Part shown: one piece after another, positions 2,352 through 28,496 of the stretch
Position numbering within the stretch: position 1 is the stretch's first letter
How the letters are laid out: the number at the start of each line of letters is the position of its first letter
Source of the DNA: Deltaproteobacteria bacterium
GTDB lineage: Bacteria > Desulfobacterota > Deferrimicrobia > Deferrimicrobiales > Deferrimicrobiaceae
Direction: 5' to 3'
DNA: 47,341 nucleotides
Assembly (NCBI GenBank): GCA_016218975.1
Contig: JACRCO010000086.1
Span: 1 to 47,341 of the forward strand
Program-made: the position numbers and the translations under genes
The notes under the pieces: model-generated
Seen by the model: only the letters and a program-made list of their open reading frames with translations
Told to the model about the DNA's origin: nothing
Database searches by the model: none

Positions 2352-4745
2352 ATGGCCAGGTCGCTAGTCGTCGTCGAATCGCCCGCAAAGGCCAAGACGA
2401 TACAGAAGATATTGGGCAAGGGATACCAGGTTCTTTCATCGATGGGGCACGTCATGGACCTGCCGAAGAGCCGGCTCGGGGTGGATGTCGAGAACGGTTT
2501 TACGCCCAGGTACATAGTCATAAAGGACCGCAAGAAGGTTTTGGGGGAAATCCTGGAAGCTTCACGCTCCGTGAAAACCGTCTACCTTGCGCCCGACCCC
2601 GACCGGGAAGGTGAGGCGATCGCGTGGCACATCGCCGATGCCATCCGGTCCGACAACGGCAAGAAGAAGAAGAAAGGAAAGGCGGCGCCTAAACCGGCTG
2701 CCGAGATCATGCGGGTGCTGTTCCATGAAATCACGAAGAAGGGAATCACGCTGGGGATGGCGGCCCCGCGCTCTCTCGACCGGAACAAGTACGATTCCCA
2801 GCAGGCGCGACGTATCCTCGACCGGCTCGTCGGGTATACCCTTAGCCCGCTCCTCTGGTCCAAGGTCAGGCGGGGCCTTTCGGCGGGCCGGGTGCAGTCG
2901 GTGGCGGTGAAGATCGTCTGCAGCCGCGAAGGGGATATCGCCGCCTTCGTTCCCGAGGAATACTGGTCCCTGTCGGCGCGCCTCGCGGGAGAGTCGCCCC
3001 CGCCCTTCCTCTCCCGCCTTGTGGAAGCGGGCGGCGAGAAGGTGCGGCCGAGGAGCGAGGGGGAAACCCTGGAACTTAGGAAGGCCGTGGAGAACGGCCC
3101 CTTCGTCGTCCGGGAGATCAGGAAAAAATTGCGCCGGCGCTCCGCCCCCCCGCCGTTTACGACATCGAAGATCCAGCAGGAGGCGGCCAGGGTGTTGAGG
3201 ATGCCTCCGTACAAAACGATGATGGTCGCCCAGTCCCTCTACGAAGGGGTGGACATCCCAGGGGAGGGACTCGTCGGCCTGATCACCTATATGCGGACCG
3301 ACTCCGTAAGGGTCGCGGAAGAAGCGGTGAGCGCGGCCAGGGAATATGTCCTGGCGGCGCACGGGGAAGCGTACCTTCCCCAGGCGCCGAACGTTTTCCG
3401 TAACCGGAAAACCGCGCAGGACGCCCACGAAGCGATCCGGCCCACCTCGATGGAGCACTTTCCGGAGAAGCTCAAGTCGATACTTTCCCGCGATCAACTC
3501 CGGCTTTACCGGTTGATCTGGAACCGCTTCGTGGCGTCGCAGATGGCGCCGGCCGAATTCGAGCAGACCGCGATCGACATCCTCTGCGACCCCGAGGGGG
3601 GAATCGCCGGCGGCTACCTCTTCCGGGCGACTGGGTCGGTGCCGAAATTCATGGGATACCTCGAAGTGTACCAGGACGGCGGCAACGGCAACGGACGGCA
3701 GGCGGGGCAGGGCGCCTCTGAAGGAGACGCTTCGGGCGGCAACGGCGGGGAGAACGGGGAGACTGACGGGGAAAAGGCGGAAGGGAACCTGTTGCCGGTT
3801 CTCTCCGAAGGAGATCGCCTTGACCTGAAGGAACTGATCGGGGCGCAGCATTTCACCCAGCCGCCTCCGCGTTTCTCCGAAAGCTCGCTTATCAAGGAAC
3901 TGGAGGATCAGGGGATCGGCCGCCCCTCGACGTACGCGTCCATCGTGAAGACGATAAAGGACCGCGGCTATGCCCGGCTCGAAGAGGGCAGGTTCCATCC
4001 GACGGAGCTTGGCCGGGTCGTCACGGGATTGCTGGAGGAAAGCTTTCCCAAGGTCATGGACGTCGCATTCACGGCCCGGATGGAGGAAGAGCTGGACCAG
4101 ATAGAGGAGGGAGAGCGGGAATTCACCCAGGCGCTTACGGACTTTTACGGGCCGTTTTCCGAGGAACTGGAGCGGGCGAAGCTCTCGATGCCGATGGTGA
4201 AGGACGAGCTGATCGCGACGGGAATCTCCTGCAGCGCATGCGGCGGGGAAATGGTGATCCGATTCGGGCGCGCAGGGAAATTTCTCGCTTGCCGGAATTA
4301 CCCCGAGTGCCGCAATACCGCCAATTTCCGCGAGACCGCGGAGGGAAAGATAGAGATACTTCCCGACGAAGAAGCCGGAGTCGCGTGCGACAAGTGCGGC
4401 AAGCCGATGGTGATACGTAGATGGAAGGGTGCCAGGTACATCGCCTGTTCCGGTTACCCCGATTGCCGGAACAGCCGTCCGTTCCCGATCGGCGTCGCCT
4501 GCCCCGAGTGCGAAGAAGGGGACATCGTCGAGAGGACTTCCCGCATGGGAAAGGTCTTCTACAGCTGCTCGCGTTTTCCCGAATGCCGCTTCGCATCATG
4601 GAGCCGCCTCGTTCCGGGGCAATGCCCCGTTTGCGGCTATAAAGCTATGGCGGAGAGGGTCCGGAAAGGCGGCCTGACCGAGATCGTCTGCGCCCGGAAG
4701 GGGTGCGGTTCGAACAAGGCGAAAAAAACCGCGGCGGGGGAGTGA
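2352..4745 (+). CDS. topA: DNA topoisomerase I (type IA)
   Basis: A 797-residue topoisomerase I that relaxes negative supercoils by cutting one strand through a 5'-phosphotyrosine. The TOPRIM domain is at the N-terminus (VVVESPAKAKTI, then DPDREGEAIAW). The catalytic Tyr is residue 313 in GLITYMRTDS. The C-terminus carries four tetracysteine zinc ribbons, starting CSACGG, CDKCGK, CPECEE and CPVCGY, from about residue 627 on. Two low-complexity stretches interrupt the core: a Lys-rich run near 102-110 and a Gly/Asn/Glu-rich run at about 442-478. GGAGGAA at 2342-2348 sets the ATG. It is followed four bases later by the sigma-54 regulator. Confidence 0.97.
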   Translation: MARSLVVVESPAKAKTIQKILGKGYQVLSSMGHVMDLPKSRLGVDVENGFTPRYIVIKDRKKVLGEILEASRSVKTVYLAPDPDREGEAIAWHIADAIRSDNGKKKKKGKAAPKPAAEIMRVLFHEITKKGITLGMAAPRSLDRNKYDSQQARRILDRLVGYTLSPLLWSKVRRGLSAGRVQSVAVKIVCSREGDIAAFVPEEYWSLSARLAGESPPPFLSRLVEAGGEKVRPRSEGETLELRKAVENGPFVVREIRKKLRRRSAPPPFTTSKIQQEAARVLRMPPYKTMMVAQSLYEGVDIPGEGLVGLITYMRTDSVRVAEEAVSAAREYVLAAHGEAYLPQAPNVFRNRKTAQDAHEAIRPTSMEHFPEKLKSILSRDQLRLYRLIWNRFVASQMAPAEFEQTAIDILCDPEGGIAGGYLFRATGSVPKFMGYLEVYQDGGNGNGRQAGQGASEGDASGGNGGENGETDGEKAEGNLLPVLSEGDRLDLKELIGAQHFTQPPPRFSESSLIKELEDQGIGRPSTYASIVKTIKDRGYARLEEGRFHPTELGRVVTGLLEESFPKVMDVAFTARMEEELDQIEEGEREFTQALTDFYGPFSEELERAKLSMPMVKDELIATGISCSACGGEMVIRFGRAGKFLACRNYPECRNTANFRETAEGKIEILPDEEAGVACDKCGKPMVIRRWKGARYIACSGYPDCRNSRPFPIGVACPECEEGDIVERTSRMGKVFYSCSRFPECRFASWSRLVPGQCPVCGYKAMAERVRKGGLTEIVCARKGCGSNKAKKTAAGE

Positions 4746-4749
4746 CCGT

Positions 4750-6138
4750 TTGAAACATCGCCTCCTGGTGGTGGACGACGAGCAAAGCCTGCGGCAGTTC
4801 CTTACGCTTTTCCTCCAGAAGGAAGGATACGAGGTGGACGTCGCCGCCTCACGCATCGAGGCGGAGAAAACGATTCGGGAAAACGTATACGACCTCGTAA
4901 TCACCGACATGCGCATGGCCGCCGAGGACGACGGGTTAAGGATCCTGCGCGCGGCGATCGAGATGTCTCCATCCACCCAGGTGATCGTGCTTACGGCTTT
5001 CGGCACGATCGAAGGCGCCGTCGAAGCCATGAAGCTCGGGGCCTATAATTACATCGTCAAGCCGTTCAACAACCAGGATCTGCGCGACCTTATCCGCGGT
5101 GCGCTGGCCAGCAGGGAAACCGCCGTCGAGCGGCGCCGGGCGCTCCGCCAGGAAATACAGGGGAAATCCTCCTTCGAAGGGATCGTCGGGCGCAGCGAAG
5201 CGATGCTCATGGTCTACGAGCTCATAGATCGGGTCGCCCCTACTAACGCCAACGTGATGATCCTGGGAGAAAGCGGCACGGGGAAGGAGCTTATCGCCTC
5301 CGCCCTGCACGCCCGGAGCGAACGAAAGGACGCCCCCTTCATAGCGATCAATTGCGCCGCTATACCGGAAACGCTTATGGAGAGCGAGCTTTTCGGCCAC
5401 ATGCGGGGTGCGTTCACTGGCGCCGTTCAAACCAAGCGCGGGCTCTTCGAGGCAGCACACAAGGGTACGTTGTTCCTCGACGAAGTGGGAGAAATCCCGG
5501 CGAACATGCAGAGCAAGCTGCTTCGGGCGATCCAGGAGCGGGTTTTCAGGCGCATCGGCGGCAACGAGGACATTTCGATCGACGTCCGGATCGTGTGCGC
5601 TTCGAAGCGTAAGCTCGAAGAGGAGATGAAGGCGGGGCGTTTCCGCGACGACCTGTATTTCCGCCTGAACGTCATCCAGATCGTCGTGCCCTCCCTGCGT
5701 GAGCGAAGGGAGGACATACCCGTTCTTGCGCAGCATTTTCTAGATAAATATGCGAAACTGATGGGCAAGCCGATAGCCCGGATGGACGGGGGAACTATGC
5801 GGTCCCTGCTTGCCTACGATTACCCGGGGAACGTGCGGGAACTGGAAAATATCATGGAAAGGGCGACGATCATAGAGACAAAAGATGTCATATCGATTGC
5901 TTCCCTCCCTCAAAATGTGACAAAAATTGACAGTTCCGCCGGTGAAGCTGCGGTGTTCATACCGGAAGCGTTCGACGTCGAGGGAAGTTCCCTCGATACC
6001 GTGGTCGACCGCCTCGAAAAAGAACTTTTATTGAAGGCACTTGAACGGTCGGGAGGGAACCGCACGGAAGCCGCGAAATTATTGAATATCTCCTTCCGCT
6101 CCATGCGATATCGGCTCGACAAGCACGGGATCGAGTAG
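4750..6138 (+). CDS. pilR: PilR-like sigma-54-dependent response regulator
   Basis: A 462-residue NtrC-family activator: receiver domain (acidic D9/D10, phosphoacceptor D53, conserved Lys in YIVKPF), AAA+ domain with Walker A GESGTGKE, the sigma-54 contact loop GAFTGA, and a Fis-type helix-turn-helix at the end ([18 protein letters not shown]). Such proteins hydrolyse ATP to open promoters bound by sigma-54 RNA polymerase. The pilR assignment rests on position: two pilin genes follow, each behind a -24/-12 promoter, the first of which starts two bases after this stop codon. The start is TTG at 4750, in the GTTTG after the topA stop. No partner kinase (PilS) lies next to it; the kinase at 16618 has its own regulator. 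Confidence 0.85.
5916..5932. promoter_or_regulatory. Candidate upstream activator site for the pilin promoters
   Basis: Two TGACA units (5918-5922 and 5928-5932) lie one helical turn apart in an AT-rich patch inside the end of the PilR-like gene. On the other strand this reads as TGTC units separated by a T-rich tract, which resembles the spaced TGTC sites described for PilR of Pseudomonas aeruginosa. It lies about 210 bases upstream of the first sigma-54 promoter, a usual distance for an NtrC-type enhancer. The patch codes for the linker before the HTH domain, so its composition may also reflect the protein. Confidence 0.35.
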
Positions 6139-6139
6139 A

Positions 6140-6154
6140 TGGCATGGTTTATGC
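6140..6154 (+). promoter_or_regulatory. Sigma-54 promoter of the first pilin gene
   Basis: TGGCATG-GTTT-ATGC matches the sigma-54 pattern TGGCACG-N4-TTGC with exact GG-to-GC spacing. It starts two bases after the stop codon of the PilR-like activator and sits 46 bases upstream of the pilin ATG at 6201. Transcription would begin near 6166. Confidence 0.75.
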
Positions 6155-6165
6155 GTTATAAAATA

Positions 6166-6183
6166 TCCCGGAATATTCCGGGA
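6166..6183. promoter_or_regulatory. Perfect 18-bp palindrome at the predicted transcript start
   Basis: TCCCGGAATATTCCGGGA is a perfect inverted repeat with no mismatch. It begins at the position where the sigma-54 promoter at 6140-6154 should start transcription. As RNA it could form a hairpin at the extreme 5' end; as DNA it could be an operator for a dimeric protein. The Shine-Dalgarno sequence (GAGGGG, 6190-6195) lies just downstream of it. Confidence 0.6.
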
Positions 6184-6200
6184 AACAGCGAGGGGCTAAA

Positions 6201-6659
6201 ATGACCGGGAATAAAAGGGGTTTTAGCCTGGTTGAGCTTATGATAATCGTCGCGATTATCGGGATTATCGTGACATTGGCGATTACCACCTATATGAATT
6301 TCATCGTGAAAAGCAGGAGATCCGAGGTCAGGTACAACCTGGAAGGGATCTATAAAGCCGAATTATCCTGGTACGGTGAATATAATTATTTTTCAGACAG
6401 TTTTTCGACAATTCGCTGGCAACCCGAGGGAGTATGCCAATACACGTATTTTTTAGGTGGAGCAGAATATAAGGGCAAGGACATACTTGCGAATCCTGAA
6501 CCGACCGCTCCTTCTCCGCCGATAGTGCCTGCCACGGTTGCCGGCAGCTCTTTCACTGCAAAAGCATGGGGAAATATCGACAACGATCCAACTTTTGACG
6601 TATGGCACATAAATGATGTAAAAGATATGCAGAATACGGTTGATGACCTTTCGTCTTGA
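6201..6659 (+). CDS. Type IV pilin-like protein (first of two)
   Basis: A 152-residue type IV pilin with a 7-residue leader ending in Gly, cleavage before Phe8 (KRG/FSLVELM), Glu at mature position 5 and the usual hydrophobic N-terminal helix. The C-terminal part ends with a WHINDVKD-type motif shared with the next gene, so the two are paralogs. The single Cys in GVCQYTYF cannot form an intramolecular disulfide. It is preceded by GAGGGG and a sigma-54 promoter. The gene is visibly richer in A and T than its neighbours. It may be a second major pilin, a minor pilin or a partner subunit. Confidence 0.88.
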   Translation: MTGNKRGFSLVELMIIVAIIGIIVTLAITTYMNFIVKSRRSEVRYNLEGIYKAELSWYGEYNYFSDSFSTIRWQPEGVCQYTYFLGGAEYKGKDILANPEPTAPSPPIVPATVAGSSFTAKAWGNIDNDPTFDVWHINDVKDMQNTVDDLSS

Positions 6660-6661
6660 AT

Positions 6662-6677
6662 TGGCACCGCGGTTGCA
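6662..6677 (+). promoter_or_regulatory. Sigma-54 promoter of pilA
   Basis: TGGCACC-GCGG-TTGCA is close to the sigma-54 consensus with exact spacing. It starts three bases after the stop codon of the first pilin gene and lies about 55 bases upstream of the pilA ATG. The predicted transcript start is near 6688. It would let pilA be expressed separately from the upstream pilin while answering to the same activator. Confidence 0.85.
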
Positions 6678-6732
6678 AGATTTTTTGACGGATTCGATGA
6701 AAGGCAATCAACCCGCGGGAAAGGAGAAAACC

Positions 6733-7203
6733 ATGCGGATCGGAAAAAAGGGATTCACACTGATCGAGTTGATGATCGTCGTGGCGATCATCGGCATCCT
6801 GGCGGCAATCGCGATACCTAACTTCCTCAAGTTCCAGGCGAAATCAAAACAGTCCGAGGCGAAAACGAACCTGAAGGGGATCTACACGGCGGAGACATCG
6901 TACTTTGGTGAACAGAATACTTACGGCAACTTGACCGCTGTGAGTTGGGTTCCTGTAGGCAGGACACGTATTTATGGGTATACGATCCAGACCACTCCGA
7001 TAACCGGTGGCGCTGCCGATACCGACCTCATGAAGCCGGCGACCACTGCCCTTACCGGCACACAGACCCTTGTTGTAACGCCGGGTTTTGCCTCGAACGC
7101 CTTCACCGCATCTGCGGCGGGCAACATCAGCACCGGCGGCACACAGGACACCTGGTCCATAAACGACGTAAACTCGCTGGTCAACAACACGACTGGGCTC
7201 TAG
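6733..7203 (+). CDS. pilA: Type IV pilin PilA
   Basis: A 156-residue prepilin with leader MRIGKKG, cleavage before Phe8 (G/FTLIELM), Glu at mature position 5 and a canonical long N-terminal helix. The C-terminal domain is rich in Thr, Ser and Gly and ends near WSINDVNSLV, as in delta-type full-length pilins. It has no Cys. It is not the very short pilin of Geobacter sulfurreducens. The ATG at 6733 follows AAGGAGA at 6721-6727; an open frame reaching back to 6640 has no ribosome site and would place residues before the leader. An intrinsic terminator follows at 7226. Confidence 0.94.
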   Translation: MRIGKKGFTLIELMIVVAIIGILAAIAIPNFLKFQAKSKQSEAKTNLKGIYTAETSYFGEQNTYGNLTAVSWVPVGRTRIYGYTIQTTPITGGAADTDLMKPATTALTGTQTLVVTPGFASNAFTASAAGNISTGGTQDTWSINDVNSLVNNTTGL

Positions 7204-7225
7204 TAGCACGCAAGGATTTCTCAAG

Positions 7226-7264
7226 AGGATCGGGGGCGTCTCGTCCCTGATCCTTTTCATTTTG
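7226..7264 (+). terminator. Rho-independent terminator after pilA
   Basis: AGGATCGGGGG (7226-7236) pairs with TCCCTGATCCT (7244-7254), an 11-bp stem with two G-U pairs, around a 7-base loop. The T-rich tail TTTTCATTTTG follows. It would end the pilA transcript. Its tail overlaps the TTG start of the next gene. Confidence 0.7.
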
Positions 7265-9166
7265 TTCTTCTCGGCCGTTGCGCACGGCGGCGAGACCCCC
7301 GTCTCTCTATTCGTCATCCGGCTGGCGGCGTTTTCCCTGGCTGGGGTCGCGCTTTGGCGTTCCCGAAAGGAATATCCCCTGTGGCTGCCGGTCGACATCT
7401 CCGTAACTGTTTTCCTGTTTTATGTCACGCTCTCGACAACCTGGGCGGTTTATCCGTGGTCGGCGCTCCAGTATGCGATGAATGTGCTGGCGGCGGCGTC
7501 GGTTTACGTTTTGCTTCGGGTGCAATGGATGGAGGGCGACACGGGGAAGCATGCGGAGCGCCTGCTTCTTGTCATGGTGGTTGCGGGAATCGTGCAGTCG
7601 GCCTGGGCGTCATATCAGTATCTCTACGGACAGCCCGGGCGTGCGAGCGGATCGTTCGCCAATCCCAATCACCTGGCCGGCTTTCTCCTTTTCGGGGTAG
7701 CGGCGGCCGTACACTTCCTGAAAAGAGAGGTCGACAGGCGCAATGCCGCAGGAATATTCGTATTCGGTGCCTTCGCTTTTCTGATGGCGTGCAGCGTGGT
7801 TCTTACGAAGTCGCGGGCGATGATTCCGGTGATTGCCGGGGCCTTCCTGTTCCTGTTGTTGGCCTTGCGGGGGAGGAATGCATACCGATTCCTGGCGGGA
7901 GCGACGGCGAGCGCGGCAATCCTTGCGGCCGTGGCAGCGCCGCGATTTTCCGCCCTGGTCGATCCGTACGCGTACAGCCGCTGGAAAATATGGAAGGCGG
8001 CGGTGCGGACGGCGCTTGACCATCCGCTTGGCGCAGGCCTCGGCGGGTTCAAGTTCTTCTGGCTTCATTACCGGGATCCGATCGAAGGGGCGGTATTCCG
8101 GTACTGGAAAACCGCGGATACGGCACACAGCCAGTTCTTCGGGTTTCTTTCGGAGCTTGGGTTCCCGGGTGTTTTCCTTGCGGCGACGGCGGCCGTGTCT
8201 GTCCTTGCTCTTGTTCTGCGGGAAAGCCGGAGGGAAGACCGCATTCTTCCATTGTCCCTGATTCCGCTGGCCGCAATGATCCACGCGTTTTTCGACGTGA
8301 ACCTGGATATTCCGGGCATAACCCTGCCCGTGGCTGCCTGTACCGCCCTGCTGGCGAACCGGAATATGGGAAGCCCCCGGAGAGGCATCTCCGTTTCCCC
8401 GGTCATCAAGTCGGGCATTTCGCTTATTCTGCTCCCGTGTCTTGCGTATTCCGTAGCGACGTTTGCGGGGCATCGCCGGTATGCGGATGGCGTGGAATTT
8501 CTCCGGAAAGGCGACACGGAAAGGGCAATGGAGGGTTTTTCGGAAGCGAGCCGCATTGATCCTCTCAACTCCGGCTACCCCGACGCTGTGGCGTCGGTGC
8601 ATTACCGGAGATTCCTTGCAAGCCGGCATCCGCAACACCTGGCGGCATCGGTCGATGCCGAGCGGAGAGCGATTTCCGCGAGCCCATGGAATCCATACCA
8701 TTTGTCCCAGGCGGGATTTCTGATGGGAGAGTTGTCGAAAACGTTTCCGGACGGGGAGTCCCGGCGGCGATTGCTGTCATTATCGATATCCACGCTTGAG
8801 GAAAGCCTGCAGAGGAATCCCAACGACATCGTTGCGCAAATGAGAATGGCCGACGTTCTTCGAATTTCGGGCATGGAGATGGGCGCGCGCGATATATTGG
8901 AAAAGCTGATTGCCGTCGAGCCCAACGCCGTTCGAGCCTACGTAATGCTCGCCGACGTTGAGGCATCGGCATATCCCGGGAAAGCCGCGGAGCTTTACCG
9001 AAAAGCAATTGCCTTGTCCATGGAACTTGAGGGAAAATCGCTCGAGCCTTCGCTTCGGGAATTCGTGGAACTGGACCGGGACGCAATCCGGCAACGCGTC
9101 GAAATCCTCGAAAGCGACATTTCAGGCCGCATCTCGCGGGAGAATGATAAAATCCGAACGCGATAG
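7262..9166 (+). CDS. O-antigen-ligase-like membrane protein with TPR tail
   Basis: A 634-residue protein. About residues 1-390 hold many hydrophobic segments with features of the Wzy/O-antigen ligase family, such as GSFANPNHLAGF near 130 and a loop with TAHSQFFGFLSELGFPG near 285. Residues 395-600 form TPR-like helical repeats. Family members polymerise or transfer lipid-linked glycans in the periplasm; some modify pilins (TfpO, PglL). Next to pilA, a pilin oligosaccharyltransferase is attractive but unproven. The start is uncertain: TTG at 7262 is the only usual start codon, has no Shine-Dalgarno sequence and lies in the tail of the pilA terminator. The frame is open upstream, and hydrophobic residues continue before the TTG. 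Confidence 0.75.
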   Translation: MFFSAVAHGGETPVSLFVIRLAAFSLAGVALWRSRKEYPLWLPVDISVTVFLFYVTLSTTWAVYPWSALQYAMNVLAAASVYVLLRVQWMEGDTGKHAERLLLVMVVAGIVQSAWASYQYLYGQPGRASGSFANPNHLAGFLLFGVAAAVHFLKREVDRRNAAGIFVFGAFAFLMACSVVLTKSRAMIPVIAGAFLFLLLALRGRNAYRFLAGATASAAILAAVAAPRFSALVDPYAYSRWKIWKAAVRTALDHPLGAGLGGFKFFWLHYRDPIEGAVFRYWKTADTAHSQFFGFLSELGFPGVFLAATAAVSVLALVLRESRREDRILPLSLIPLAAMIHAFFDVNLDIPGITLPVAACTALLANRNMGSPRRGISVSPVIKSGISLILLPCLAYSVATFAGHRRYADGVEFLRKGDTERAMEGFSEASRIDPLNSGYPDAVASVHYRRFLASRHPQHLAASVDAERRAISASPWNPYHLSQAGFLMGELSKTFPDGESRRRLLSLSISTLEESLQRNPNDIVAQMRMADVLRISGMEMGARDILEKLIAVEPNAVRAYVMLADVEASAYPGKAAELYRKAIALSMELEGKSLEPSLREFVELDRDAIRQRVEILESDISGRISRENDKIRTR

Positions 9167-16617: not shown

Positions 16618-18138
16618 TTGAAACGGGACGTTTCGGTGCGGACGGGCGTCGTCATCCAGTTGACGCTTATCGCCGTCGGCTCCCTTTCCCTGCTGGCCCT
16701 TTTTTCCCTGAAAGCCATCGAACTCAGCATGGAACGCCGTCATGCCGAGGCGGCGCTTTCGGTCGCATACGCCGTCAGAAGCTCCGTTGAAGCGGCGGGA
16801 GAAGGCGGGGTCGCCGGCATGGCAAGAATCCCGGGGGCGGTTTCCGGTCAATCGCCCTATGTGCAGGGGGTGGATCTGCTTCCCGAAGGCCCTCCGGCGG
16901 ACGGCGTCATCGTCGAACCGGCAGGCGAAACCGCCGGCGGAATACTTTCCGTCCATCCGGCGGTAGATGTGACTCTTCCGCTTGCCGCGGGGACGGATCG
17001 CGCCAGGGGAATTCGTGTCCGGTTCTATTCGCCCGGGGTCGTAAAGGAGGCGCGGCACCTCGTCAGGATCGCGGGCCTGCTGGTGGGAGCGGATATAATC
17101 GTCATGGTCCTGTTCGGGACGTTCCTCATGGATCGTTCGGTCGTGCGCCCCTTGCGGCGCCTTGCATCAGTAGCCGAAAAGATTGCAGCGGGTGATTACG
17201 GCCTGCGGGCGGACGAATACCCGGGGAATGAGGTGGGGCAGCTGGGCGCCTCGTTCAACCGGATGGTCGAAGCGATGCTTTCGGCGAGGGAAAAGGCCCG
17301 ACGTGCCGAATTCGACGCGTACCGTTCCGAAAAGCTGGCGACGGTCGGACGGCTGGCCGCCGGTGTCGCGCACGAAGTGGGAAGCCCTCTGATGGCGGTG
17401 AGAGGGTACGCGGAGTACCTCGGGAAGACTTCCGTGGACAGGGCGGAGCGTGAGGAATGTCTTGGCAAGATCGTCGAGGAGACGCGGAAAATAGAGAATA
17501 TAGTCCGCGGACTACTGTCGGTGGCTTCCCCGGGGGGGATCGAGGGCGAGGCGCAGGCGGACATTAATGCCGCCGTGCGCGAAACATTGGATGTTCTCTC
17601 GTTCAGGAAGATGTTCCGTAATATCGAAATCGATGTCGAATACGGGGAGGTCGGCCGTGCGTGCATTTCCGCAGGGCGGCTTCAGCAGGTCCTTCTGAAT
17701 CTGGTTCTGAACGCGGTGGACGCGATGGGAGATAGTGGAACGCTCCGGATCCGCACCTTCGAAGTCGTGCCGTGGATTCCGCGGTCTGCCCGCGACGTAA
17801 GAAGGCGCGCCACCGATCCATCGAATGTGGATGTCATTACGCTGCGCGGGGGGCGGGAAAAGGCCCAGTCCGAAGGGGTGGCCGTGTCGATCTCGGATAC
17901 CGGGGGCGGGATAAGCCCCGAAAACCTGGAGATCGTATTCGATCCGTTTTTCACGACAAAGGAACCGGGTAAAGGGACGGGCCTCGGCTTGTCTGTATCA
18001 CGCGCCATCGTGGAAGGGGCGGGGGGTGAAATTCGCGCCGGGAGCGAGAAGGGCAAGGGCTCGACCTTTACCGTCGTCCTTCCCGTCAGTCCGGCTGCAA
18101 GTGCGGCGGCGGCCGCCGGAAGGGAATCGGATGTCTGA
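16618..18138 (+). CDS. Membrane sensor histidine kinase
   Basis: A 506-residue kinase: membrane segments at about 12-32 and 142-166 enclosing a periplasmic sensor region, HAMP (about 167-220), dimerisation/phosphoacceptor domain with H252 in GVAHEVGSPL, and an ATPase domain with LLNLVLNAVDAMGDSG, SDTGGGI and GKGTGLGLSVS. An extra stretch of about 35 residues, rich in Arg and Asp, sits between the N box and the G1 box. The TTG at 16618 is a weak start; GTG at 16636 is an alternative. It overlaps the next gene by eight bases and surely phosphorylates that regulator. It resembles NtrB/PilS-type kinases. Confidence 0.9.
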   Translation: MKRDVSVRTGVVIQLTLIAVGSLSLLALFSLKAIELSMERRHAEAALSVAYAVRSSVEAAGEGGVAGMARIPGAVSGQSPYVQGVDLLPEGPPADGVIVEPAGETAGGILSVHPAVDVTLPLAAGTDRARGIRVRFYSPGVVKEARHLVRIAGLLVGADIIVMVLFGTFLMDRSVVRPLRRLASVAEKIAAGDYGLRADEYPGNEVGQLGASFNRMVEAMLSAREKARRAEFDAYRSEKLATVGRLAAGVAHEVGSPLMAVRGYAEYLGKTSVDRAEREECLGKIVEETRKIENIVRGLLSVASPGGIEGEAQADINAAVRETLDVLSFRKMFRNIEIDVEYGEVGRACISAGRLQQVLLNLVLNAVDAMGDSGTLRIRTFEVVPWIPRSARDVRRRATDPSNVDVITLRGGREKAQSEGVAVSISDTGGGISPENLEIVFDPFFTTKEPGKGTGLGLSVSRAIVEGAGGEIRAGSEKGKGSTFTVVLPVSPAASAAAAAGRESDV

Positions 18139-19519
18139 CCGGGTATTGGTGGTCGACGACGAAGCGGGGATGCGCGATGTGCTCGGTAAAATCCTTTCCT
18201 CCGAGGGATACGCGGTTGCGCAAGCCGGAAACGGAAAGGAGGCGCTCCATGCTCTCGAGAGGGAGGCGTTCGATTTCGTCCTCTGCGACATCAGGATGCC
18301 GGAAATGGGCGGACTGGAGCTGCTCCGGGAGATCGTCGCACGCAGGATCCGCGGCACCGTGATCATGATGTCAGCGTTCGGAACGTTCGAAACCGCCGTT
18401 GAAGCGATGAAATCGGGCGCTTACGACTACGTTTCCAAGCCGTTCATGAGCGATGAGATCCTTTTGACGCTCAGGAAGGCCCGGGAGAGGGAGGCCCTTC
18501 GAAGGGAGAACGAGTACCTGAGGAGCGAAGTCGTAAAGGCGCCGCGGCCCGACGACCTGCTGTACGCGAGCCCGGCCATGGCGGAAGTCGTCCGGATGGT
18601 GGAAAAGGTAAAGGATTACGATGCCACGGTTCTCGTCACGGGAGAAAGCGGAACGGGAAAGGAACTCGTGGCCCGGATGCTTCATTTTGCCGGACGCCGG
18701 GGAAAGGGGCCGTTCGTGGCGATCAGCTGCGGAGCGATCCCGGAAAATCTCCTGGAGAGCGAACTGTTCGGGCACCGCAAAGGCGCGTTCACGGATGCGA
18801 AATCGGACCGGGAAGGCCTCATTGAAAAGGCGGGCGACGGGACGCTGTTCCTGGACGAAATCGGCGAGCTTTCCCTTCCGCTGCAGGCCAAATTGCTCCG
18901 CGTGCTTCAGGAAGGGGAACTTCGCCGGCTTGGAGACACCGAAATCAGGAAAGTCGACATCAGGCTTGTCGCCGCAACCGCCAGGGACCTGGAGCAGGAG
19001 GTGGCGGACGGAAGGTTCCGTGAAGACCTGTTCTACCGGCTGAATGTGATACGGATCCACATTCCTCCATTAAGGGACCGCAGGGAGGATATCCCGCTGC
19101 TTGCGCAGCATTTCCTCGGCCGTTTCTCGCAGAAATTCGGGAAGCCCTCAATGTCCCTCATGCCGGAAAGCCTTGAGACCCTGAGGGAATACGATTGGAG
19201 GGGGAATGTGCGGGAACTGGAGAACCTGATCGAGCGTTGCGTCCTTCTTTCGGGGGGTAGAGATGTCAGCCGCGAGGAACTGCTTTCCATTTGGAAACGC
19301 GGGACCCCGGTGGATCGGAGGGAATCCCCCTCTTACCTCGTACAGGTTCCCGTACCATTGGATCGACCCGATCTCAAGGAGGCGATCCGGGAAGTCGAAA
19401 AGCAGCTTATACGGCTTGCACTCGAGCGCACCGGGGGGAACCGGCCGAAAGCGGCGGAGCTTTTGGGTATCAGCCACCCGGCATTGATATACAAGGCGAA
19501 GGCTTACGGTTTGAACTGA
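18131..19519 (+). CDS. NtrC-family sigma-54-dependent response regulator
   Basis: A 462-residue activator: receiver with D53, AAA+ domain with Walker A GESGTGKE, and a C-terminal Fis-type HTH ([18 protein letters not shown]). The sigma-54 contact loop reads GAFTDA instead of GAFTGA, a variant I recall from other family members. The ATG at 18131 lies within the end of the kinase gene; the open frame to 18026 belongs to that gene. With the kinase it forms a complete two-component system between pilD and pilM, so pilus or surface genes are likely targets, but no -24/-12 promoter was seen directly beside it. Confidence 0.92.
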
Positions 19520-26233: not shown

Positions 26234-26781
26234 GCCGCGGGGAAAAGGGTCCGCGCGAAGCGGTTCTAGTCGGGTTCATGGGCGCGGGGAAAACCACCGT
26301 CGGGAAGATGCTCGCGAAGCGACTGGACGCCGAATTCGTGGACGTCGACGATCTGATAGAGAAGGCGGAAGGGCGAAGCATCCGGGAAATTTTCGCTTCC
26401 CCGGGGGAGGGTGCGTTCCGCAAGATGGAAAAGGCGGCGATACGCAACGTGGTTTCCGTTCCGGGACGGGTGATCGCAGCAGGGGGCGGCGCTTTCCTGG
26501 ATGAAGGGAACCGGCTTATGTTGTCGGCCTACGGTCCGGTTTTCTTCCTCGATGTCTCCTGCGAATCCGTCCTTGCGCGGCTGTCCGGCGACAGGTCCCG
26601 CCCGTTGCTCCCGGGAGAGGAGAAGGGATTGCGGGAATTGTTGGAGGCACGGCGCCCCTTTTACCTGCTGGCCGATTTCACCGTGCCCACGGGAAGCCGC
26701 CCGGCGCGGGAAGTGGCCGAGGACATCCTTGCGCTTCTGTCAGGCGGCCGCCACGCGGGCCGGGAGGAGGGAGGCGCATGA
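26230..26781 (+). CDS. aroK: Shikimate kinase
   Basis: A 183-residue P-loop kinase that phosphorylates shikimate at the 3-hydroxyl. It has Walker A GFMGAGKTTVGK (about 14-25), the shikimate-binding DVDDLIEKAEG with FRKME after it, the GGG of the acid-binding loop (AAGGGAFLD) and the lid region near DRSRPLL. Its length is standard. It overlaps aroC and aroB by four bases each, so the three are translated as a block. Confidence 0.95.
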   Translation: MSRGEKGPREAVLVGFMGAGKTTVGKMLAKRLDAEFVDVDDLIEKAEGRSIREIFASPGEGAFRKMEKAAIRNVVSVPGRVIAAGGGAFLDEGNRLMLSAYGPVFFLDVSCESVLARLSGDRSRPLLPGEEKGLRELLEARRPFYLLADFTVPTGSRPAREVAEDILALLSGGRHAGREEGGA

Positions 26782-28496
26782 CCTCCGACATGCTGACTGT
26801 CGCATTGGGCGAGCGGACGTACGACATATTTTTCGGGGAGGATGTCTATCCGCTCCTCCAGGAGTGGATCTGCCGGTTCTTTCCGGGCAGATCGGTGTTC
26901 GTCGTGACGGACCGGACCGTGGCTGCCATCTACGGCGACGATATACGCGCCGGCCTGGGCGGCATCTCCCACCGCATCCATGCCGTCGAGCCGGGAGAAG
27001 AGACGAAGAACTGGCAGACGGTGCTTGGGATTTACGCATTCCTCTCGGAAGGTAACGCGGACCGGGATTCGCTGGTCATCGCCTTCGGCGGAGGAGTTGT
27101 CGGGGACCTCGCAGGTTTCGCCGCCGCCACGTGGCTTCGCGGCGTCCCGTACATACAGGTGCCGACCACGCTGCTTTCCCAGGTGGACAGCAGCGTCGGG
27201 GGGAAAACGGGGTTCAATCTGCCTGAAGGGAAAAATCTCGTCGGGGCATTCCACCAGCCGCGGGCGGTCTTCATCGGCGACGGATTCCTACGGACGCTCG
27301 ACGACCGGCAGTTACTGTCCGGCATGGGGGAAGTGGTCAAGTGCGCCCTTGCGGGGGACGCGGCGCTCTGGGAAACGCTTTGCTCCATCGGAAGCCGATG
27401 GCGGTCCATGTCCGGGCGGGAATGGCGCGATGTCGTGAGGCGGACCGTCGCCTTCAAGGCCTCCATCGTGGAAAAGGACGAGCTGGAATCTTCAGTGCGG
27501 AGAGTCCTCAACCTCGGGCACACCGTGGGGCACGCCATGGAGCAGGCGGGCGGATACGGAAACCTCCTTCACGGAGAGGCGGTTGCGATGGGGCTCGCCT
27601 GGGAAGCGGTCCTTGCGCGACGTCTCGGAGTCACCCCCCGGGAGGTCGAGGAACGGCTCTGCTCGCTTTTGAAGGAATTCGGATTCGCCCTCGACGAACC
27701 GGGCATAGCGTCCGAGGCGATCGCTTCCGCGATCGGGGCGGACAAGAAGCGGGTCGTATCGGACGTGGATCTTCCGATGGTGACCGCACCCGGAGCTTTC
27801 GTGCTGAAACGGATCCCCCTGTCACTGATCAGGAAGGAACTTCCGGCCGTCCGTGAGGAGGTAAGGAGGAGGGATCGCGGGACGTCCGTCGATTCCGCCG
27901 AGGAAAAGGCGTTGCGCGCGCGGATGGAAGGGGGCGACCTGGAGGGGGCGATACGATCGCTGGAACGCCTGGTCGCGGAAAACCCGCGCGATCTGCGGGC
28001 CATGTCGCTGCTGTCCGAAGCCTACCTCGCCGCCGGGAAATATTCCGCGGCCTGGGAAACGATCAAGGAGGCGCTTCACCAGTATCCAGCCGATCCCGGA
28101 GCGCAGAGGCTGGCCCGGGAGATCGAAAGGGAACTCATCGGCTCGGTTTCCACGGAAGGAGATGCGGCTCCGCCGCCTCTGGAGGACGTTATTCTCCTCG
28201 ACGAGGGGATCTTCGAAATCCGTCCGGCCGAGCTTCCGGAGGAATCCGCAGAGGAATCCGCGGAGGAACCTGCTCCCTCCGTACTTACCGTTACCATGGC
28301 CGATGTCTGCTGGGACCAGGGCGAGAGGGAGATTGCACGCCGGATCATCGACGAGATCCTCCGGCGGGATCCGGGCGACATACGCGCGCTGGAATGGAAA
28401 AAGACGCGAGAGGAACGGGCGGTCGAAACCGCGCTGGCCTTCTTCCTCGGAACGATCGCGAAGGAGTACGGCTATGAGCTTTCGGGACCTCATTGA
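26778..28496 (+). CDS. aroB: 3-Dehydroquinate synthase fused to a TPR-like tail
   Basis: A 572-residue protein. Residues 1 to about 360 are a normal AroB, which closes DAHP to 3-dehydroquinate with NAD and a metal ion: FGGGVVGDLAGFAA, QVPTTLLSQVDSSVGGKTG, the Lys of GKNLVGAFHQP, LNLGHTVGHAME and HGEAVAMG. Residues about 375-570 have two helical segments of TPR type (near 380-455 and 510-550) joined by an acidic Glu/Ser/Pro-rich linker. AroB alone is usually 350-370 residues, so the tail is an addition of about 200. The DNA is one uninterrupted frame. A strong Shine-Dalgarno sequence (TAAGGAGG, 27862-27869) lies at the junction without a start codon. Confidence 0.93.
   Translation: MTSDMLTVALGERTYDIFFGEDVYPLLQEWICRFFPGRSVFVVTDRTVAAIYGDDIRAGLGGISHRIHAVEPGEETKNWQTVLGIYAFLSEGNADRDSLVIAFGGGVVGDLAGFAAATWLRGVPYIQVPTTLLSQVDSSVGGKTGFNLPEGKNLVGAFHQPRAVFIGDGFLRTLDDRQLLSGMGEVVKCALAGDAALWETLCSIGSRWRSMSGREWRDVVRRTVAFKASIVEKDELESSVRRVLNLGHTVGHAMEQAGGYGNLLHGEAVAMGLAWEAVLARRLGVTPREVEERLCSLLKEFGFALDEPGIASEAIASAIGADKKRVVSDVDLPMVTAPGAFVLKRIPLSLIRKELPAVREEVRRRDRGTSVDSAEEKALRARMEGGDLEGAIRSLERLVAENPRDLRAMSLLSEAYLAAGKYSAAWETIKEALHQYPADPGAQRLAREIERELIGSVSTEGDAAPPPLEDVILLDEGIFEIRPAELPEESAEESAEEPAPSVLTVTMADVCWDQGEREIARRIIDEILRRDPGDIRALEWKKTREERAVETALAFFLGTIAKEYGYELSGPH

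Follow-up and report, generated by a model that had tools for sequence, protein, structure and literature searches.

Adjacent pilin genes with separate sigma-54 elements, and candidate enhancer dyads inside pilR

Introduction

Single sigma-54 promoters located before pilA and controlled by PilR are established (PMC3224663, PMC3262810, PMC2725144): the -24/-12 promoter of Geobacter sulfurreducens pilA was mapped by 5'-RACE (PMC2725144), and that of a Xylella fastidiosa pilin by primer extension (PMC3224663). Pairs of pilins are also known. Azoarcus BH72 carries two adjacent pili genes, pilAB, downstream of PilSR and with a sigma-54 promoter (PMC3262810), and both Xylella fastidiosa and Legionella pneumophila possess two paralogous major-type pilins, pilA1 and pilA2, whose deletion in Xylella gives opposing motility phenotypes (PMC9956873).

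The locus analysed here resembles the PilS/PilR-RpoN systems of G. sulfurreducens, Pseudomonas aeruginosa and X. fastidiosa in that a PilR-type activator adjoins pilA and a -24/-12 promoter precedes the pilin; unlike those systems it has two pilins and two promoters, candidate dyads inside pilR, and a pilR that is located at topA, apart from pilS. The pilAB genes of Azoarcus differ in having one promoter and one co-transcript, and their pilA encodes a short prepilin. Only pilA1 of Xylella has been described as directly sigma-54 dependent (PMC3224663), and loss of pilR in Legionella caused no significant drop of pilA2 mRNA (PMC13170364); in the parts of the Xylella and Legionella literature at hand no shared-enhancer, two-promoter arrangement is described.

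Three other lineages – those of G045 and G050, and the sister family f2 (G024, G025) – also combine a PilR-like gene with two pilins and a sigma-54-like site before each, the sites being strongest at the second pilin; each has one dyad cluster (up to one mismatch), as in the window's family. The pilins of G045 and G050 differ in that they are not PilA1 orthologs, and the dyads of f2 and G050 are found not in pilR but between the pilins. Searches of open-licence papers turned up no paired sigma-54 promoters that share an enhancer located in pilR, and we regard the candidate enhancer dyads as the new feature.

The pilin locus

The window – the whole stretch of 47,341 nucleotides that was analysed – is contig C86 of a 2.95-Mb genome (100 contigs, 97.6% complete). 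The gene order is dprA-like, topA, pilR, pilA1, pilA2, an O-antigen-ligase-like gene, an ORF that matches no family, an ABC ATPase and a permease. The features discussed below are as follows.

4750..6138, plus strand: pilR, NtrC-family enhancer-binding response regulator of the PilR type (Pfam Response_reg, Sigma54_activat, HTH_8)
5876..5890, no strand: enhancer dyad I, AGACA-AAAGA-TGTCA, in the pilR coding sequence, candidate PilR site (dyad with up to one mismatch, position, synonymous-codon null)
5918..5932, no strand: enhancer dyad II, TGACA-AAAAT-TGACA, 42 bp from dyad I (dyad with up to one mismatch, synonymous-codon null)
6140..6154, plus strand: P1, -24/-12 element TGGCAT-GGTTT-ATGC (read directly; kept in 9/9 two-pilin family loci)
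6201..6659, plus strand: pilA1, type IV prepilin, class-specific paralog (N_methyl, TIGR02532; clade 100/99)
6662..6676, plus strand: P2, -24/-12 element TGGCAC-CGCGG-TTGC (exact consensus; kept in 8/8 two-pilin family loci)
6733..7203, plus strand: pilA2, type IV prepilin (N_methyl, Pilin_PilA over cut-off; tree)
7223..7257, plus strand: strong intrinsic terminator 3' of pilA2 (16-pair stem, T tract)

The O-antigen-ligase-like (Wzy_C) gene, which includes TPRs, occupies 7262-9166 directly 3' of the pilins and is found in the same place in several relatives; by analogy with ligase genes adjoining pilA elsewhere, a role for its product in pilin glycosylation is possible. A further TPR region is fused to the C-terminus of a 3-dehydroquinate synthase encoded at 26778-28496.

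Two sigma-54 elements

Read directly, the pilR stop codon (TAG, 6136-6138) is followed by a single A and then by P1, and the pilA1 stop codon (TGA, 6657-6659) by AT and then by P2, with the start codon of pilA2 (ATG) at 6733. The GG/GC register is the same in both elements, with the C 12 nt after the second G. The preliminary description had termed both promoters near-consensus, which holds for P2 – an exact copy of TGGCACN5TTGC and the sole match in the window with zero or one mismatch – but is generous for P1, which departs at two positions. Matches with up to two mismatches occur 18 times in the window versus 31 expected by chance (shuffles), and by these counts alone P1 is unremarkable. 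Transcription is predicted to start at about 6166 from P1 and at about 6688 from P2.

The genome encodes RpoN, and other exact sigma-54 sites in it precede genes reading as nifH and amtB; the consensus thus appears to be in use in this genome. Genome-wide match counts proved uninformative as a significance test: sequences with up to one mismatch are not commoner than matches to a reversed control pattern, which is the more frequent of the two. No forward-strand sigma-70-like site was found in 5800-7500 of the window.

P1 is credible because the element is conserved in relatives. Of 26 genomes of the class, 20 yielded a PilR ortholog, and the surroundings of these orthologs were compared; nine loci of the window's family have two pilins, one of which (G015) is partly masked so that P2 is unreadable there and P2 counts are out of eight. 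At 9/9 loci a GG-N10-GC site starts 1-2 nt past the pilR stop and at 8/8 readable loci P2 starts within 7 nt of the pilA1 stop (5/8 exact), counts that come from related genomes – 17 in the family – and are non-independent trials; by chance such a site would be expected at about 7e-4 per position with up to three mismatches and at 1.4e-4 with up to two. The major-base frequency over the ten core positions is 0.90 for P1 and 0.94 for P2, compared to 0.54 in the 30 nt downstream: the core letters are kept, while only about half identity is left in the DNA around them and the PilR proteins of the compared loci are down to 69% identical. The -12 of P1 reads ATGC, CTGC or GTGC in all nine family loci and that of P2 reads TTGC in all eight; P2 of the sister family f2 reads TTGA, without the C at -12. 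Family members with one pilin (n=8) have one element 28-50 nt past the pilR stop, mostly TGGCCCG-N4-TTGC.

Together the direct reading and this conservation bear out the earlier claim of two adjacent pilins, each with its own gene-abutting sigma-54 element. The search of related genomes for both promoters, proposed at the same time, recovered P1 and P2 at every readable two-pilin locus of the family, and no family relative departs from the exact GG/GC spacing. The reading as one sigma-54 promoter for each pilin, both behind a PilR-type activator, is well supported by these comparisons, by the identification of the activator as PilR and by a conserved candidate PilR enhancer (both below).

A perfect palindrome, TCCCGGAATATTCCGGGA, is present at 6166-6183. 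Its first letter coincides with the predicted start of the P1 transcript, so that the P1 mRNA would begin with a hairpin; the palindrome is not conserved in relatives.

Candidate enhancer dyads inside pilR

In the 3' end of pilR, third codon positions vary unusually little over two short segments, each of which is a dyad of the form TGACA-N5-TGTCA. Dyads I and II are the only ones with up to one mismatch in the 47 kb window (0.2 expected). The pair is present in 17/17 family genomes, 42 bp – four helical turns – apart, at -262 and -220 from the pilR stop in most of them and shifted yet still 42 bp apart in three (G017, G004, G018); in several relatives dyad II has the perfect form GTGACA-N5-TGTCAC. 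The null model was based on synonymous codons resampled from each gene's own usage and was repeated 20,000 times: summed dyad mismatches over the 17 genomes are 42, compared to an expectation of 117.5 +/- 5.0 and a lowest simulated value of 98. Moreover, G004 and G018 keep the dyads though the linker peptide is unrelated, showing that it is the DNA, not the protein, that is conserved; amino-acid conservation as the source of the dyads is ruled out by the null model and these two genomes together. Measured from the -24 of P1, the dyads are centred about 215 and 257 nt upstream; from the -24 of P2 the corresponding distances are about 737 and 779 nt.

Similar dyads occur beyond the family. Those of the sister family are spaced by 32 bp and fall between the two pilin genes, at 113-114 nt before P2. 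Five other families (represented by G042, G026, G057, G050 and G045) have, downstream of a PilR-like gene, a sigma-54-like site that is preceded at 104-217 nt by a dyad with up to one mismatch, the dyads being paired at 21-22 bp in three of the five. No dyad was found with the pilin and exact sigma-54 site of G038, with the sigma-54-like site of G030, or at 12 loci of the phylum that lack both a sigma-54-like site and a pilin. Published hallmarks of PilR sites include TGT and GTCT elements (PMC6058289). Given their position, their co-occurrence with such sites and their TGT/TGTC resemblance to these hallmarks, the dyads are likely to be the PilR operator. If so, they provide a sequence-level operator candidate for the phylum – paired TGACA-N5-TGTCA dyads spaced by whole turns (about 21-22, 32 and 42 bp) – with which the DNA of Geobacter-type organisms could be scanned; in these, the control of pili by PilR bears on extracellular electron transfer.

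Each two-pilin locus examined (nine from the family, two from the sister family, G050 and G045) contains one dyad cluster, at up to one or two mismatches, which adjoins either P1 or P2 and never both. The presence of one cluster per locus suggests that a single enhancer probably serves both promoters. G045 has a further two-mismatch candidate before its second pilin.

Elsewhere in the genome a dyad, TGTCAAGAATTGTCA, is found at the end of another enhancer-binding protein (EBP) gene, 121 nt before a sigma-54-like site (L222, G000:C53, 2322-2457). We do not count it as a third PilR target: the dyad overlaps the stop region of the EBP gene and the site precedes a sigma-28-type gene.

Identity of PilR and its separation from pilS

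The activator has receiver, sigma-54 AAA+ and Fis-type HTH domains (Pfam). Its best named relative is that of L052 (52%), a Geobacteraceae locus with the order pilB-pilT-pilC-pilS-pilR-pilA-ABC-ABC2, and it is on account of synteny with and similarity to this locus that we identify the activator as PilR. A second sensor kinase (HAMP, HisKA) and NtrC-family regulator are encoded at 16618-19519, 11 kb downstream, beside the pilM-pilQ genes and directly upstream of pilM and a secretin gene; the pair is kept nearby in G012, G011 and G010. By the same measures of synteny and similarity to L052 this second regulator (18131-19519) is less likely to be the true PilR.

The pilR gene adjoins pilA1 and is located directly 3' of topA, without pilS, whose presence beside pilR is a usual, not a defining, feature of PilR. 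The pilS-pilR adjacency is absent from 20/20 class loci inspected: pilS is found after pilB-pilT-pilC and before trmFO, in this genome on another contig. The class thus has the orders dprA-topA-pilR (window 2352-6138) and pilB-pilT-pilC-pilS-trmFO (L154, G000:C13, 4750-11793), compared to pilC-pilS-pilR in other families of the phylum. Both junctions would follow from a reciprocal exchange involving a pil operon and one that joined topA to trmFO; for the topA-trmFO half we draw on a gene order known from other bacteria, an adjacency seen here in one outgroup locus only (L219). With pilS and pilR split throughout the class, one may ask how the two products are kept at matching levels.

Transcripts, model and alternatives

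The coding strand between pilA1 and pilA2 showed no hairpin of the terminator type (fold z = +0.25), whereas the terminator after pilA2 gives a fold z of -3.4. Since nothing would stop transcription between the genes, P1 is expected to yield a pilA1-pilA2 message and P2 a message for pilA2 alone, predicting an excess of PilA2; GC3 is lower in pilA1 than in pilA2 in 6/7 genomes, which agrees weakly. A TTGC -12 binds sigma-54 holoenzyme better, and for this reason P2 is predicted to be stronger than P1.

In the model we favour – and which, taken as a whole, we judge to be probable, with moderate confidence – phosphorylated PilR would bind the two dyads, 42 bp apart, inside the 3' part of its own gene, and DNA looping would activate sigma-54 polymerase at both P1 and P2. 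P1, with its consistently weak -12, would give a modest bicistronic pilA1-pilA2 message, and P2, with its consensus -12, an extra pilA2 message ending at the terminator 3' of pilA2. The pilins would be co-induced, with PilA2 in excess as the main subunit and PilA1 a co-regulated variant or minor-abundance subunit. Sigma-54 systems allow looping from one enhancer to two promoters; that P2 is activated from about 740 nt away is our assumption, because there is no dyad near P2 in the window's family. The suggestion in the preliminary description that one activator drives both pilins, in different ratios, is still an inference, now based on the single enhancer cluster, the differing -12s and the uninterrupted interval between the genes. 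If true, the locus would offer a small, natural example of one enhancer shared by two sigma-54 promoters, which perhaps compete for it, with pilin ratio as the readout. More tentatively, and with slightly less than even confidence, we propose a general form: an enhancer in the coding sequence of the activator drives two sigma-54 promoters (at about 0.2 and 0.7 kb), distance and promoter strength set the ratio of co-assembled pilins, and the logic recurs in several deltaproteobacterial-type lineages, where the enhancer sits either in pilR or in the interval separating the pilins.

Three alternatives were considered. The first, which we think unlikely, reserves the pilR dyads for P1 and places P2 under another EBP (for example 18131-19519), or under PilR at a weak local site, the two pilins answering to different signals. 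The second sensor/regulator pair beside pilM-pilQ, retained in three relatives, would suit such an arrangement, as does the lack in the window's family of any conserved dyad with up to two mismatches near P2. However, shared k-mer and dyad scans gave no other conserved motif before P2, and the same type of dyad adjoins P2 in the sister family and G050, which makes P2 a probable target of the same regulator. K-mers common to the regions before P1 and P2 included nothing convincing.

Slightly less probable still is that a single promoter (P1 or P2) works, the other being a vestige of gene-plus-promoter duplication, and that the pilins form an ordinary operon like Azoarcus pilAB, which is co-transcribed from one mapped sigma-54 promoter (PMC3262810). 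P1 is indeed a weak match in the window, and tandem pilins with one site before the first occur elsewhere (e.g. L108), but a vestige would decay, and both cores are kept where their flanks, and PilR itself, have diverged to the extent given above. Finally, a chance origin of the elements, as random hits in GC-rich DNA, with the pilins transcribed from ordinary sigma-70 promoters, is very unlikely: two-mismatch matches are common in the window, where chance alone is not rejectable for P1, and genome-wide matches do not exceed the reversed control, but position-specific conservation (9/9 and 8/8) rules out chance for P1, RpoN is encoded and no forward-strand sigma-70-like site is at hand in 5800-7500.

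The two pilins

Both pilins have the prepilin motif G|FxxxE and a hydrophobic N-terminal helix, with N_methyl and TIGR02532 over cut-off, and mature parts of 145 aa (PilA1) and 149 aa (PilA2). The profile of each protein finds 8tj2 ('Type IV major pilin protein PilA'), at positions 1-117 (E 2.9e-32) for PilA1 and 1-124 (E 7.4e-42) for PilA2; since the resemblance extends past the helix, PilA1 is taken to be major-type. With the first 30 residues set aside, PilA1 and PilA2 within one genome are 36% identical, and conservation between genomes is 55% for PilA1 versus 47% for PilA2.

In a maximum-likelihood tree every one of the ten PilA1 sequences, which come from the two families making up the class, falls in one clade (100/99), whereas PilA2 and most single pilins intermingle (the short pilin of G022 falls elsewhere); one-pilin relatives mostly keep the PilA2 kind. 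A recent local duplication as the origin of PilA1 is ruled out by a clade that spans two families. This topology indicates that the pilin pair is ancestral to the class and that one-pilin members probably lost pilA1. The duplicated arrangement, thought unusual when first described, is therefore not unique to this genome: by the tree it goes back to the ancestor of the class, and two-pilin loci with a sigma-54-like site before each pilin are also found in the G045 and G050 families. A search of 395 phylum genomes returned PilA1-level scores (>220 bits) only within the class, the best others being about 157.

Near the C-terminus PilA1 and its relatives share an invariant GN(I/L)DxDxxxDxW, suggestive of a metal-binding loop; the motif is less strict in PilA2. 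At a contig edge in G007 (C8:2-1150) a second pilR 3' fragment, 72% identical over the last 250 residues, is followed by another pilin, and is possibly a second copy of the locus.
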